From a virus, in IMG/VR virus record IMGVR_UViG_3300009149_000152, positions 1 to 33,083 of that record: a DNA stretch of 33,083 nucleotides, one strand, 5' to 3'. A program made the position numbers and the translations under genes. Of this stretch, positions 1 to 5,723 are shown piece by piece (the stretch's first letter is position 1; the number at the start of each line of letters is the position of its first letter). Below the pieces are notes generated by a model. It made no database searches. It was not told the DNA's origin and saw only the letters and a program-made list of their open reading frames with translations.

Positions 1-488
1 GAAATAAATCCAGGGTCTCCTTCAACTAAAGTACCACCTAACTTATCTGCTAACGCTTCACCAGAGGTGTCTATTTGCCCCTCTACGGGCTTTTCAGGCT
101 CTTGGCTGGTAGTTAACCCTAAATGCTGTTCAATGCGTGTAAGGCGGAATTTAAGGCTTGATACTTCTGACTCTAAATTAGTAGCTTGAGGTGCTTGTGG
201 CACGGTTGCAGATGGCTGTCCTGTGTATAATGCAATCGTCATTATTGTACGATAAAATGTTCCTTCGTTCTGTGGGTTTGGATTTTCATCGTGTTTTATA
301 ACAAATGTTTTTCCTGTAGCAGACATTGCATGAGGTTCAAATGATGTATAAGCTACGGTTGGTGTTCCATCTTTTTTAGTTCTCCAAATTGAGAATACTT
401 TACCGTCTGCTACAATCTTAATGCGTTTTTCTTCGAGTTGTACTTCTGTGATTGTTATTGTTTTTTCTAGGAGTGGTGCGTCTGACAT
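1..488 (-). CDS. Hypothetical protein, N-terminal 162 residues (continues at the right edge of the window)
   Basis: The frame opens at ATG 488-486 in the usual 'aataaatATG' context and has no stop before position 1. The first ~90 residues are mixed beta/charged (IVADGKVFSIWRTKKDG, FVIKHDENPN). A Pro/Ala/Gln linker follows, then a helical segment (ESEVSSLKFRLTRIEQHLGL) that could be a short coiled coil, then an acidic tail. If the molecule is circular, the frame continues unbroken at 33083 and ends at 32984, giving about 195 residues in all. No family is recognised. The N-terminal pattern loosely recalls small OB-fold nucleic-acid binding proteins, but this is only an impression. It is the last gene before the window edge in the leftward small-gene operon, three bases downstream of the 61-residue gene. 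Confidence 0.75.
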   Translation of the reverse strand, partial: MSDAPLLEKTITITEVQLEEKRIKIVADGKVFSIWRTKKDGTPTVAYTSFEPHAMSATGKTFVIKHDENPNPQNEGTFYRTIMTIALYTGQPSATVPQAPQATNLESEVSSLKFRLTRIEQHLGLTTSQEPEKPVEGQIDTSGEALADKLGGTLVEGDPGFI

Positions 489-2661: not shown

Positions 2662-2808
2662 TTAACTTGTCTGTTTGTCATACTCTCTTATTATTTTAAG
2701 TATAAATAGATTCCATGAAAGACCCGATTCTAACTTTAGCTTTCTAAAAGCTATCCAAGTAGTATCAGCCATTCTTATTCCTTTAATGTTGTAATGTTTA
2801 TCTCTCAT
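2662..2808 (-). CDS. Ribbon-helix-helix-like DNA-binding protein, 48 aa
   Basis: A 48-residue protein whose start ATG overlaps the stop of the methyltransferase (ATGA at 2808-2805). The pattern is a short beta strand (YNIKGIRMA), a first helix (TTWIAFRKLKLESG), a turn, and a second helix (SWNLFILKIIREYDK). This is the order and size of an Arc/CopG/MetJ ribbon-helix-helix domain. Such proteins dimerise and bind palindromic operators, often their own. The 16-bp palindrome just before the methyltransferase start is a natural candidate site. An internal ATG at 2772 would remove the beta strand, so the upstream start is preferred. Confidence 0.7.
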   Translation of the reverse strand: MRDKHYNIKGIRMADTTWIAFRKLKLESGLSWNLFILKIIREYDKQTS

Positions 2809-4025
2809 AATAATGCTTGTTGTATAGACTCTTTCTTAGCATGGTCTATCCTAGCTCTAGCTATGCGACAATACTCTTCATCTAAATCTATACCTATAAA
2901 ATCAAAGCCTTCGTATACACATGCCTTGCCAGTTGAACCTGAACCCATGAACGGGTCTAATACTGTTCCACCTTTAGGAGTAACGAGGCGAACGAGGTAT
3001 TGCATTAGTTTAGTAGGCTTAACCGTTGGATGGTTGTTGGCTGATATTGATTTGTTACGTTGATATGCGTTTTCTATGGTCTTGTTTCTTCCGTCGTGGC
3101 TGTACTGCTTCTCCTCAAAATCATCAAGCCCATCATTCCTATCACTCTTACTTGCTTTCGCACAGTAGAAGAATCTTGCTGCAGAACCAGAGTCGCCGAA
3201 ATGTATTCCTGACTTAATGTTATTTATTACATGGGCGGTGTTGTCGTTGTTGCTTTGCTCAAAATTGTATCCACTCTTGGTCGAAGCCTTTGTATCAGGA
3301 AACAACCCTACCACCTCATCTTCTCCCGAGTGAATAAAGTTTGCTGGGAATCTGCCTTGCCTTGTTTCGTTTATTTCTTTCCATTTACAACCACCACCTT
3401 CAGGAAAGACCTTCCCACCATTTATCTTAATTTCCTCTGTTCCCACCCTACTCTCATCTATATTTATTCCACCTGTTCCATATTTTAATACATTCTCTGC
3501 TACTGTTTTTTCTGATAAAGGTTTCCTTGCTACTGTAATAGGTTCTAGGGCTGGCTTCAGTGCTGTTCCCCAGCCTTCCCATTGTTTAGCTTCATCTCCT
3601 TTTGGCTCAAACTTATATCCATAATCAGACCGCTTGCTTAAATCTCTTTTACCACCTGGATTATTAAACAATGTGCTTGTTGTTTCTTCCAACACTCCAT
3701 TTTTCTTTTCTATTGCTTTCGATATATTGTGACTTTTGGGAAATCCCGAACCGTAAACCCAAGCTATCATATCTCTAATCTCAAATCCTGCATCTTCAAT
3801 GTTGACTGCCATTCTATGTTGAGTACGAGTACCTGCAAAAGCTAGTAAATATCCACCTGGTTTGAGAACTCTAATACATTCCACCCATATCTCTACACTT
3901 GGTACGTCATAGTCCCATTTTTTACCCATAAAGGATAGTCCATATGGCGGATCGGTTACTATACTATCAACAGAGTTATCCTCTAGCTTCTTTAACTCTA
4001 CTGTGCTGTCTCCTTGTATTATCAT
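2805..4025 (-). CDS. DNA methyltransferase, beta class (N4-cytosine or N6-adenine)
   Basis: A 406-residue protein that transfers a methyl group from S-adenosylmethionine to an exocyclic amino group in DNA. The catalytic motif IV, DPPYG, is at residues 25-29, close to the N-terminus. The SAM-binding motif I, DPFMGSGSTG, is at 357-366, followed by FIGIDLDEEYC. The order IV, target-recognition region, motif I defines the beta class. The middle (about 120-320) is the variable target-recognition part. No restriction endonuclease is adjacent, so it is an orphan enzyme. Likely roles are protection against host restriction or marking phage DNA. It is coupled by ATGA to the ribbon-helix-helix gene. 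Its start is preceded by a 16-bp palindrome and a structured leader of more than 300 bases. Confidence 0.93.
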   Translation of the reverse strand: MIIQGDSTVELKKLEDNSVDSIVTDPPYGLSFMGKKWDYDVPSVEIWVECIRVLKPGGYLLAFAGTRTQHRMAVNIEDAGFEIRDMIAWVYGSGFPKSHNISKAIEKKNGVLEETTSTLFNNPGGKRDLSKRSDYGYKFEPKGDEAKQWEGWGTALKPALEPITVARKPLSEKTVAENVLKYGTGGINIDESRVGTEEIKINGGKVFPEGGGCKWKEINETRQGRFPANFIHSGEDEVVGLFPDTKASTKSGYNFEQSNNDNTAHVINNIKSGIHFGDSGSAARFFYCAKASKSDRNDGLDDFEEKQYSHDGRNKTIENAYQRNKSISANNHPTVKPTKLMQYLVRLVTPKGGTVLDPFMGSGSTGKACVYEGFDFIGIDLDEEYCRIARARIDHAKKESIQQALL

Positions 4026-4343
4026 ATATATTTGTAGTTACTATTGTATATACAATACCCCACCATCCTTATACCGTGTCCTCTCTTAGAATTGCCTAGT
4101 ACAGGTAGCTACTATTAGTATATGCCTATAGGGGGTACTCTAGTAAGAGTTATAAGGATAGATTGGTAAAGAGCTAATAAAATTGGGGCGATTCTTGAGT
4201 GGAGGTGTTCCGTTGAGTGGTTCTATTCAATTCCATTTATAGTGCGATTGAAACCCGACCATCTGGGCTATAAGGTTACACTATCGGTCGCTATATAGGT
4301 TACTCATAAAAGTAACTTAATAAAGACAGATAAATTCGGGTAG
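4026..4343 (-). other. Structured leader of the methyltransferase gene, no gene seen
   Basis: About 320 bases lie between the end of the P2 small RNA and the methyltransferase start. They contain inverted repeats: GTTACT/AGTAAC; CGACC/GGTCG interleaved with ATAGTG/CACTAT (a pseudoknot order); ACTCT/AGAGT; and the palindrome at 4042-4057. A direct repeat TTGAGTGG occurs at 4195-4202 and 4213-4220 (18-bp period). No convincing open frame is present on either strand. Confidence 0.5.
4042..4057. promoter_or_regulatory. 16-bp perfect palindrome, candidate operator
   Basis: TATTGTATATACAATA, a perfect palindrome 16 bases upstream of the methyltransferase ATG. It is well placed to be bound by the ribbon-helix-helix-like protein encoded downstream. 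Its core GTATATAC also occurs in the P1 region (1778-1785). Confidence 0.5.
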
Positions 4344-4357
4344 AAAAAAACACTGTT
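4344..4357 (-). terminator. Intrinsic terminator (3' arm and U-run) of the P2 RNA
   Basis: The arm AACAGTGTTTT is followed on the minus strand by an uninterrupted run of T (4350-4344). Its 5' partner is 62 bases upstream at 4430-4420, so the terminator stem encloses or interlocks with the rest of the RNA rather than being a simple short hairpin. Confidence 0.6.
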
Positions 4358-4461
4358 CAGGCGTCGTGCTGCTCAGTCTCTTTCCAAAGACCTTTGTCCC
4401 TAAGGACACACAACACCCTAACAGTGTTTTCTTGGAAAGATTTTGAGCAGGCTGAATTGAC
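4344..4461 (-). ncRNA. P2 small RNA with pseudoknot order of helices
   Basis: The predicted transcript runs from about 4461 to the U-run at 4350-4344 (about 118 nt). Helices in transcript order: CTGCTCA (4450-4444) pairs with TGAGCAG (4375-4369); CTTTCCA (4439-4433) pairs with TGGAAAG (4386-4380); these two stack with a short internal loop. AAAACACTGTT (4430-4420), lying inside them, pairs perfectly over 11 bp with AACAGTGTTTT (4357-4347), lying outside them, which gives an H-type pseudoknot. A tight hairpin TGTCC/GGACA (4408-4404, 4399-4395) fills the loop. The last helix plus seven U's also forms the terminator. No frame in it looks protein-like. Not a family I recognise. Confidence 0.7.
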
Positions 4462-4496: not shown

Positions 4497-4524
4497 GTAG
4501 TAGATTACTATGGGGAGATTTGGG

Positions 4525-4570
4525 TTATCCACAACCATTACGAGCATGTCCTCGATATGGTTTGTCCACA
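4525..4570. other. Candidate replication origin or control element: two DnaA boxes around an inverted repeat
   Basis: A perfect DnaA box TTATCCACA (4525-4533) and a one-mismatch box TTGTCCACA (4562-4570) lie in the same orientation. Between and partly overlapping them is an inverted repeat: AACCAT (4533-4538), CGAG (4541-4544), six-base loop, CTCG (4551-4554), ATGGTT (4557-4562). The element lies between the divergent promoters P2 and P3 at the point where the two transcription arms of the genome separate. Host DnaA binding there could start replication, regulate both promoters, or both. Only two good boxes are seen, fewer than in most chromosomal origins. Confidence 0.5.
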
Positions 4571-4571
4571 G

Positions 4572-4601
4572 TTGACCTACTATATGTAAAGATGCTATAC
4601 T
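4572..4601 (+). promoter_or_regulatory. Promoter P3, sigma-70 type
   Basis: TTGACC (4572-4577), 18-base spacer, TATACT (4596-4601); five of six matches in the -35 box and five of six in the -10 box. Transcription would start near 4608 and run rightward. The one-mismatch DnaA box ends two bases before the -35, so DnaA binding there could affect polymerase access. Confidence 0.75.
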
Positions 4602-4607
4602 AAAAGC

Positions 4608-4798
4608 AACAAGAGAAGTTGCGTTTTAACAATTAGAAATCCCTATCTACAAGCATGGGAGAAGCATATAGGTTATAACAGGCTCAGGCTCGTTATTCTC
4701 AATAGTGGTTCTTCTTGGATAAGGGTTTTTGCTTGTTACGAAGGAGCTGTACAAAATTATAGAGATGATGATCTAGTTTAGTTACGCTAGATTTTTTA
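4608..4798 (+). ncRNA. P3 structured RNA, about 190 nt
   Basis: It runs from the predicted P3 start to a T-run after a 6-bp stem. It opens with a hairpin at the very 5' end (GCAAC/GTTGC flanked by AAAA and TTTT), then CCTAT/ATAGG, ATAAC/GTTAT around a repeated GGCTCA motif, and ends with ATCTAG/CTAGAT. No protein-like frame is present. It could be an independent small RNA or an attenuated leader of the rightward operon. Confidence 0.55.
4771..4797 (+). terminator. Probable intrinsic terminator of the P3 RNA
   Basis: ATCTAG (4771-4776), 10-base loop, CTAGAT (4787-4792), then T's through 4797 and a second T-run after one A. The stem is A/T-rich, so termination may be partial, leaving transcription to continue into the 79-aa gene and the structural operon. 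Confidence 0.55.
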
Positions 4799-4891
4799 TT
4801 TTTGATAAAACTACTGGGTACGTGATTATAGCACGTATAACTGATTTTCAATCAGCCACTTTAAACCTCTCAGACACCTCCATTATAGCCT
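4799..4891 (+). other. Short spacer with two perfect hairpins
   Basis: TACGTG/CACGTA (4819-4824 with 4832-4837) and CTGATT/AATCAG (4841-4846 with 4850-4855). The second resembles a tRNA anticodon arm, but no D arm, T arm or acceptor stem can be built. It probably belongs to the 5' leader of the 79-aa gene. Confidence 0.4.
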
Positions 4892-5131
4892 ATGTTATTC
4901 GAATCAGGTTGTATTCATTGTGGAAAACATACTTACGACCACGTAATAGGTAGCCCTTTGTGTTTTAAGCATTACAGACAATATAATCTCGGTCTTTCGG
5001 ATAAACTTAGAAGAGAAGGACGCTTTGAAAAGAGATATGAGCCTAGAAGAACAAAAAAGGTAAGCGTATTCACAGCTCTTAACTTCATATTCTCAGATAA
5101 GGAAGATTTTACAATAAACGATTTAGTATAA
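4892..5131 (+). CDS. Small Cys/His-motif protein, 79 aa
   Basis: A 79-residue protein with a metal-binding pattern near the N-terminus: C7, C10, H13 (CIHCGKH), then C24 and H27 (CFKH). A basic middle follows (LRREGRFEKRYEPRRTKK) and a short folded tail ending in DFTINDLV. This could be a small zinc finger with an RNA- or DNA-binding tail. It is placed between two structured RNA segments on the same strand, so an RNA-binding role is attractive but unproven. It starts at ATG in 'agcctATG' with no SD. Confidence 0.65.
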   Translation: MLFESGCIHCGKHTYDHVIGSPLCFKHYRQYNLGLSDKLRREGRFEKRYEPRRTKKVSVFTALNFIFSDKEDFTINDLV

Positions 5132-5630
5132 TTTCTATAGTAGCCCTGTTATAACAGTGAGCACAAAAAGTGGCTTGCTAGATGACATCTCAAGGCGTCG
5201 TCTAGCAGGGCTAAAATAGAATAATACGAGAGATTTCAGGAAGACCTCTCGCAAATAAACCTCCCTGTAAGTCGCATGACTAATGCACAGTTCAATCCCC
5301 GCAATGTCTGACCACTTGACAACGGGGTGCTCAAATGTGCATTAGTTGCGGATGTACTACGTGCTGTGAATGAAGGCGAAAGCCCTGAGCCCACTAGCCA
5401 CCACTGGTACGACTATTATTCTTACATAAAAGCCTTGAGATAGACCATATTCCCTATGAGCCTAAAAGTGGCGTATGGCATTAAAATTAGCAATATAATG
5501 GAAGCATACATTAGGTCGCTATAATCATTTAGTGGCATTGGAAGGGAGCTTCTTGGCTGGGTCTTATGAGACTTCGACTACCTCATAGGTTATTGCCTAG
5601 ACCAATAATGACCTTCCATTATACTGTTAT
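5132..5630 (+). ncRNA. Second large structured RNA region, about 500 nt
   Basis: A non-coding stretch with at least four independent stem domains. Domain 1: TTCTAT plus TAGCCCTG (5141-5148) pairs with CAGGGCTA (5206-5213) plus ATAGAA, enclosing GCTAGA/TCTAGC (5177-5182, 5201-5206). Domain 2: CGAGAG/CTCTCG (5227-5232, 5246-5251). Domain 3: an 11-bp perfect helix (5279-5289 with 5336-5346) enclosing CCCCG/CGGGG and TGTC/GACA. A GNRA-capped stem GGC-GAAA-GCC follows near 5376. Domain 4: an 11-bp perfect helix (5494-5504 with 5613-5623) enclosing GGTCT/AGACC, TATGAG/CTCATA and GAAG-GGAG-CTTC. Strand is assigned from the neighbouring genes and P3; no terminator is seen at the end. Confidence 0.6.
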
Positions 5631-5723
5631 ATGGACAACAGTGGCTTTGATTGGATATCTATTTTAGTAATGGTATTAGTAGGGATGTTAATACTTACAG
5701 CGGTTTATAATATAATATTTTAG
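5631..5723 (+). CDS. Single-pass membrane peptide, 30 aa
   Basis: A 30-residue frame starting MDNSGFDWIS, then one hydrophobic segment to the end (ILVMVLVGMLILTAVYNIIF). Its stop (TAG, 5721-5723) is four bases before the next ATG. It begins right after the last structured RNA helix, in a 'gttatATG' context. Its position at the head of the packaging operon and its similarity in size to the other tiny membrane peptides favour a real gene. The role is unknown. Confidence 0.55.
   Translation: MDNSGFDWISILVMVLVGMLILTAVYNIIF

Follow-up and report, generated by a model that had tools for sequence, protein, structure and literature searches.

Positions 4344 to 4461 of the window, by which we mean the whole 33,083-nucleotide stretch of viral DNA analyzed here (IMG/VR record IMGVR_UViG_3300009149_000152), raise the question of whether a compact, interlocked RNA is a small RNA in its own right, as a preliminary description of this locus proposed, or the regulated beginning of a longer transcript. 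We conclude that it is probably a pseudoknotted transcription attenuator, that is, a conditional terminator, forming the 5' leader of the leftward early (replication) operon. The parts listed in the preliminary description, namely a consensus promoter (P2), three perfect long-range helices of 7, 9, and 11 bp in crossing order, an inner hairpin, and a U-run, were all located in this 33-kb record (Table 1), and they place the RNA on the minus strand, which the description had left unstated. The start near 4461 and the end at 4344 are both consensus predictions, and strong expression, which formed part of the original claim, would be expected from the match of the promoter to consensus.

Table 1. 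Positions of the interlocked leader, its pairing arms, and neighboring features in the window.
Feature	Position	Strand	Sequence or pairing	Basis
DnaA box, perfect	4525-4533	+	TTATCCACA; ~28 nt upstream of the -35 hexamer	Sequence
Promoter P2	4496-4491 and 4473-4468	-	TTGACA, 17-nt spacer, TATAGT	Consensus scan, 11/12 matches
Leader RNA (predicted ~118-nt terminated RNA)	4344-4461	-		Promoter, helices, U-run
Arm P1 (outer part of b helix, 5' side)	4444-4450	-	CUGCUCA	7 perfect pairs with 4375-4369
Arm b (5' side)	4432-4440	-	UCUUUCCAA	9 perfect pairs with 4387-4379
Arm a (terminator helix, 5' side)	4408-4430	-	AAAACACUGUU at 4430-4420	Pairs with a'
Inner hairpin	4395-4408	-	UGUCC-UUAG-GGACA	Folding
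Arm b' (3' side)	4379-4387	-	UUGGAAAGA	Pairs with b
Arm P1' (3' side)	4369-4375	-	UGAGCAG	Pairs with P1
Arm a' (terminator helix, 3' side)	4347-4369	-	AACAGUGUUUU at 4357-4347	Pairs with a
U-run	4344-4350	-	UUUUUUU (seven U)	Sequence
DNA methyltransferase (N6_N4_Mtase), first downstream gene	2805-4025	-		Pfam PF01555, E 5e-36; phrog_67

The 7-bp and 9-bp helices are nested and are together termed b, and the 11-bp helix, termed a, crosses both of them, giving the order b-a-b'-a'. Beyond its 11 perfect base pairs, the a:a' helix continues past one mismatch into about 11 weaker pairs (4418-4408 with 4369-4359), several of them G.U. The terminator stem is itself one half of the crossing pair, and we uphold the earlier proposal that folding and termination are coupled in this RNA. 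A scan of the entire window for the b-a-b'-a' order with a U-run recovered a single site, with a score of 69.5, and the same scan of ten shuffles of the window gave a maximum score of 39 per 33 kb; the architecture at 4344-4461 is beyond chance. Single-strand folding of the window RNA yields a terminator form of -44.4 kcal/mol (z = -4.2). The plus strand was also tried as the RNA and was rejected, its fold being weaker (z of -2.2 versus -4.2 for the minus strand).

Relatives of the window, chosen by their terminases (86 to 90% identity), carry unlike sequence at the syntenic place with the arm order unchanged. In loci L006 and L011, a promoter (TTGACA-17-TATTCT) is followed by the arm UUUCGGAAACU, a linker, the arm AGAACCCUAAACGAUGGGA, a hairpin (UGUC-GCAA-GACA), GGUUUCCGAAA, and then the a' arm and U-run (score of 60.5); the leftward operon has its first start codon within ~14 nt after the a' arm. 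The first operon gene of L011 encodes a DnaD-like helicase loader (phrog_2514, E 4e-32), behind which come an HNH-like gene and a methyltransferase resembling that of the window. More distant leaders with the same parts are present in L101 (score of 72) and L115 (score of 57), and a promoter equivalent to P2 also stands ahead of most of the relatives' leaders. The close relative L001 has other sequence at this place and no high-scoring b-a-b'-a' copy there. Its positions 130-300 (minus strand) hold a third structured sequence, with a local hairpin terminator, a 10-bp inner hairpin, and the promoter TTGTAA-17-TATTAT, and this differing structure suggests module replacement at the leader site.

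Several other structured or noncoding sequences were observed in these genomes. In the window, plus-strand positions 4572-4795 carry another candidate noncoding transcript together with a divergent promoter (TTGACC-18-TATACT), and 4610-4729 on the same strand have a weak b-a-b'-a' score of 36. A short motif of the 4572-4795 region (AAGCAT.GGAGA...TATAGG) is common to L006, L011, and L001; a pattern built from this neighboring plus-strand RNA retrieved only close relatives and one chance coding match and was set aside. A weak tRNA-like match (22.5 bits, against an Rfam threshold of 29) occupies 4812-4883 on the minus strand, and the segment at 4224-4284, between the leader and the methyltransferase gene, is noncoding, has 79% identity to L001:69-128, and may belong to an origin, a packaging site, or an attachment site. 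In L101, the leader is followed by a long noncoding region (4500-5640) that opens with a tRNA-like stretch (GGTTCGATTCC, TGCTA...TAGCA) and contains several short tandem repeats. Very strong interlocked arms of 22 nt and 16 nt (score of 74.5) occur in L135 at 4102-4184 on the minus strand, within the intergenic space that follows a glycosyltransferase-like gene, which is not the position of a leader.

The architecture recurs ahead of replication genes, which counts in favor of the attenuator reading. A joint search of the first viral loci, in which a promoter with at least 10/12 matches was required together with the architecture, returned 23 rows, some of them redundant, whose scores reached 72; shuffled loci gave 2 rows, scoring at most 33.5. 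The family was then collected by following the loader gene, which gave ~50 distinct loci. With detector thresholds that had been tuned during inspection, upstream regions scored at least 44 in 18 of 51 cases for replication genes (15/48 without L011, L115, and L126, which were found via the detector itself) and in 1 of 347 cases for other genes in the same contigs (Fisher p 7e-17), and we regard this native-control comparison as the fairest number. The sole control match, L270:2527, is itself an operon leader in its phage, and each of the 18 high-scoring regions outscores every one of the 100 dinucleotide shuffles made from it. The leader is present in 13 of 15 loaders that open an operon versus 2 of 33 other loaders (p 5e-8). 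In these replication-gene loci the a' arm ends 5 to 32 nt before the start codon, which puts the terminator between promoter and gene and leaves no room for another promoter. The genes behind the leader vary, being mainly DnaD-like loaders but also a Lin1244-type replication protein in L115 (Pfam E 5e-10), an HNH-like gene in first place in L126 and L270, and the methyltransferase in the window; the leader therefore belongs to the promoter of the operon and not to one protein. Of the 23 members, 13 have a DnaA-like box upstream of the leader, versus ~1.1 expected, and in ten of the 13 the box is 63 to 87 nt before b, an arrangement that ties the leader cassette to replication control or an origin.

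This placement bears directly on the compact ~118-nt RNA of the preliminary description, whose architecture is real but for which a stand-alone small RNA is not the best reading, the relatives' copies being operon leaders. Because the same architecture forms a 5' leader in relatives, with a' ending so close to the start codon, a conditional terminator with a ~120-nt product is the better reading. The relatives' leaders lie between the promoter and the first gene of the operon, whereas the window leader lies 319 nt before the methyltransferase gene. We searched the window record for a loader gene and found none, and an ATG leader ORF of the kind described below was looked for in the window's copy and is absent. 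The window's copy is thus atypical among the leaders, with a 319-nt gap, a methyltransferase in first place, and neither loader nor ATG leader ORF, and it could have drifted toward a stand-alone RNA. An independent small RNA with a stable pseudoknot, acting in trans on host genes or other phage genes, would suit the strong promoter, the complete terminator, and the distance to the next gene in the window. We nevertheless consider it unlikely, given that the terminator stands directly ahead of the first operon gene in relatives, that the sequence is hypervariable, and that the leader has no unusual match elsewhere in the window. The points that we count against the attenuator reading itself are the atypical window copy, the case of L001, the lack of a leader at most loaders that do not open an operon, and the fact that mutual exclusion of the two helices is argued from topology and from nested folding.

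Most leaders could not be aligned with one another, though their loaders align. The loaders of L287 and L290, for example, have 71% identity over 126 aa, and in the corresponding leaders the flanks match and the pairing arms do not. The homologous leaders of L345 and L347 share the anchors AUAUGCCU, UAGCACC, GGUGUAGGCAC, and UUUUUUGUUAUG and differ in their arms, where both sides have changed, with pairing kept, in 13 of the 23 a pairs and 3 of the 8 b pairs, for a total of 16 double compensatory pairs; among the rest, one b pair shows a one-sided change, and three a pairs fail to form in one or the other leader. The preliminary description had named covariation of the helices in relatives as a test of its fold, and these pairs support the fold. 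No arm sequence motif is common to the members. The outer helix P1 was seen in several members without being significant as a family feature (p 0.14), and a small hairpin with b' in its loop, also present in several members, is marginal in this respect (p 0.03). Since crossing helices cannot be represented in a covariance model and the leaders do not align, we relied on a descriptor, with shuffled and native sequences as controls. Judged by these sequence comparisons, what is conserved in the leader is the order of its complementary arms and not a sequence. A strong long-loop terminator of the ordinary kind would alone account for the a:a' helix and the U-run, leaving the crossing helix functionless, but this is very improbable when the crossing helix occurs in ~20 unrelated sequences at one genomic position, beats shuffles, and has b arms that covary in L345 and L347.

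Folding predictions for partial and full RNAs of the 23 members gave two alternative folds, one of them an intrinsic terminator. When the RNA was folded up to but excluding a', the b:b' helix had a probability of >0.5 in 19 of 23 members; when the complete RNA was folded, a:a' exceeded 0.5 in 22 of 23 and b:b' was gone in those members, an exclusion that is partly imposed by the method, as the folding program handles nested pairs only and cannot show both helices. The two predicted states of the window RNA have energies of -33.9 kcal/mol (before a') and -44.4 kcal/mol (full RNA). The predicted pattern is as expected of a bistable attenuator, with the peculiarity that the competing helices, as modeled, have no bases in common; they cross.

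In the attenuator that we propose, RNA polymerase would start at the consensus promoter adjoining the DnaA box, and b (with P1) would pair with b' ahead of the transcription of a', enclosing arm a in a closed loop. On emerging, a' would be able to pair with a and form the U-tailed terminator. Because the helices cross, however, a:a' would have to thread the closed loop with its 3' end held by the polymerase, so that a preformed b:b' would hinder the long a:a' helix, serve as the antiterminator, and leave the operon on. With b:b' absent or displaced, a:a' would form, transcription would stop, and an RNA of ~120 nt would be released. The assignment of b:b' to the read-through (ON) state is what this topological argument predicts. 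We infer that termination at the leader is conditional and that the switch would be either translation of a leader ORF, which most relatives have and the window lacks, or the pairing of terminated copies in trans.

Candidate triggers can be weighed against the features of the 23 members. Antisense control as in pT181 and pIP501 is not favored, as opposite-strand promoters with at least 10/12 matches are absent in 22 of 23 members, and the window has none. A tentative but serious possibility is that a ribosome gates the attenuator, in which case translation of a short leader ORF would melt the arms, permit read-through, and deliver ribosomes to the next gene. A 5'-proximal ATG ORF ending near a' is present in 13 of 23 members versus 3.8 in shuffles (p ~6e-6, with the stop required within -32 to +42 nt of the a' end, limits that were set after inspection), rising to 15 of 23 if the ORFs of L256 and L126, which overlap the next gene, are counted, and an SD-like site was found in 0 of 15 leader-bearing loaders versus 13 of 33 others. 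The absence of such an ORF from the window and several members speaks against ribosome gating as a general trigger, as does the fact that the leader peptides are mutually unrelated.

Rather more doubtful is RNA autoregulation or immunity, an extension of the attenuator reading and not its opposite, in which the terminated leader would itself be the effector. A released copy would pair with the nascent leader, b' with b and a' with a being complementary, block b:b', and force termination; replication genes would be off when the RNA is abundant, and superinfection immunity or copy control would result, as with the P4 CI RNA. The arms are self-complementary by construction, change far more quickly than the loaders that follow them (L287 and L290), and differ between close relatives at the same place, all of which would suit such a mechanism. 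Intramolecular pairing should, however, beat pairing between copies, and a search elsewhere in the window for a target in trans recovered no unusual complement of the leader, with matches no better than those of shuffled leaders. With similar reserve, we suggest that these leaders may represent a topology-defined class of phage RNA, in which the helix formed first would block an interlocked terminator topologically, not through shared bases, and the terminated RNA would be its own antisense, conferring a lineage-private specificity of immunity or copy control.

We found no similar DNA among annotated phages, where the best identity of the window terminase is about 40% at most, and matches to the window's portal protein and to the loader are none or very distant; no cultured relative carrying the architecture was found. 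Prophages in bacterial genomes with distant terminases yielded no convincing leader, and the scan of these gave two matches above background (L200 and L192), of which L200 resembles a local repeat. Terminase relatives were found in contigs binned as Paceibacterota and Ignavibacteria. Patescibacteria were considered as hosts and rejected, the loader being present in just 1 of 380 genomes of the phylum and that one being without the leader. A loader homologue in L352 (G103:C73), from the Paceibacterota phylum, has one in-frame TGA, possibly reflecting an alternative genetic code or a disrupted gene.

If the attenuator reading is correct, the commitment of these uncultured phages to replication would be under the control of an RNA switch, and one that would be poorly visible to sequence-based and nested covariance models because it is conserved as an order of arms and not as a sequence. 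Promoter, DnaA box, and leader would together make up one small cassette, whose internal complementarity suggests a simple route by which RNA immunity specificities could diverge. The descriptor (promoter, b-a-b'-a', U-run, and start codon) is usable on other phage genomes.

The family was not recognized in the preliminary description, and a comparison with Rfam 15 agrees, with no family at its gathering threshold in the window (the best at the site was MIR904, with 18.1 bits versus 80) and a tRNA elsewhere as the only match in 19 member loci. No described phage element of this kind was found in the literature searched, which covered few subscription journals, and by the features tested the leader is assigned to none of the pT181/pIP501, ColIb-P9 repZ, and P4 CI RNA types. 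In the leader of the pIP501 replication gene, alternative helices decide between a terminator and read-through (PMC4981023). The leaders of pT181 repC and pIP501 repR (RNAIII) are like the present one in placing a choice between termination and read-through ahead of a replication gene, but in those systems an opposite-strand antisense RNA triggers termination, and here there is no strong opposite promoter. The alternative helices of the pT181 and pIP501 attenuators share bases, whereas the helices here cross.

Part of the literature, as cited in PMC10724649, describes a pseudoknot in the leader of the replication initiator for ColIb-P9 repZ and for IncB and IncL/M repA. ColIb-P9 repZ is like the present system in its combination of pseudoknot, leader ORF, and replication gene; among our members a leader ORF is enriched (13/23), but the window has no ATG ORF. 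Switches of the ColIb-P9 type act on translation, the pseudoknot activating that of the initiator gene, are controlled by a plus-to-minus antisense Inc RNA, and have conserved sequence motifs, including one in a loop. They have no intrinsic terminator among their helices, whereas here the terminator is the crossing helix itself and no motif is common to the arms.

Among phages, RNA pairing causes termination in the early leader of P4 (PMC4825925). Like the leader described here, the P4 CI RNA and IsrK systems have a phage early leader that gives either a short RNA or read-through into replication genes. The P4 CI RNA, however, is a processed RNA that pairs with seqA and seqC, and a b-a-b'-a' order with a U-tailed stem is not known to be described for P4; as for complementary target sites up- and downstream, like seqA and seqC, the complementarity of b with b' and of a with a' lies within the leader, and matches elsewhere in the window are at the level of shuffled leaders. 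Terminator riboswitch platforms also oppose a compact leader fold to a terminator directly before a gene, but the present leader has neither a conserved core able to bind a ligand nor an Rfam match. Finally, put of HK022 is a cis-acting antiterminator RNA in a phage early leader, conserved in sequence, that acts on RNA polymerase at later terminators. It is like the present leader in being a structured phage early-leader RNA that affects termination; unlike put, the leader described here has the terminator as part of its own structure, and its sequence is not conserved.
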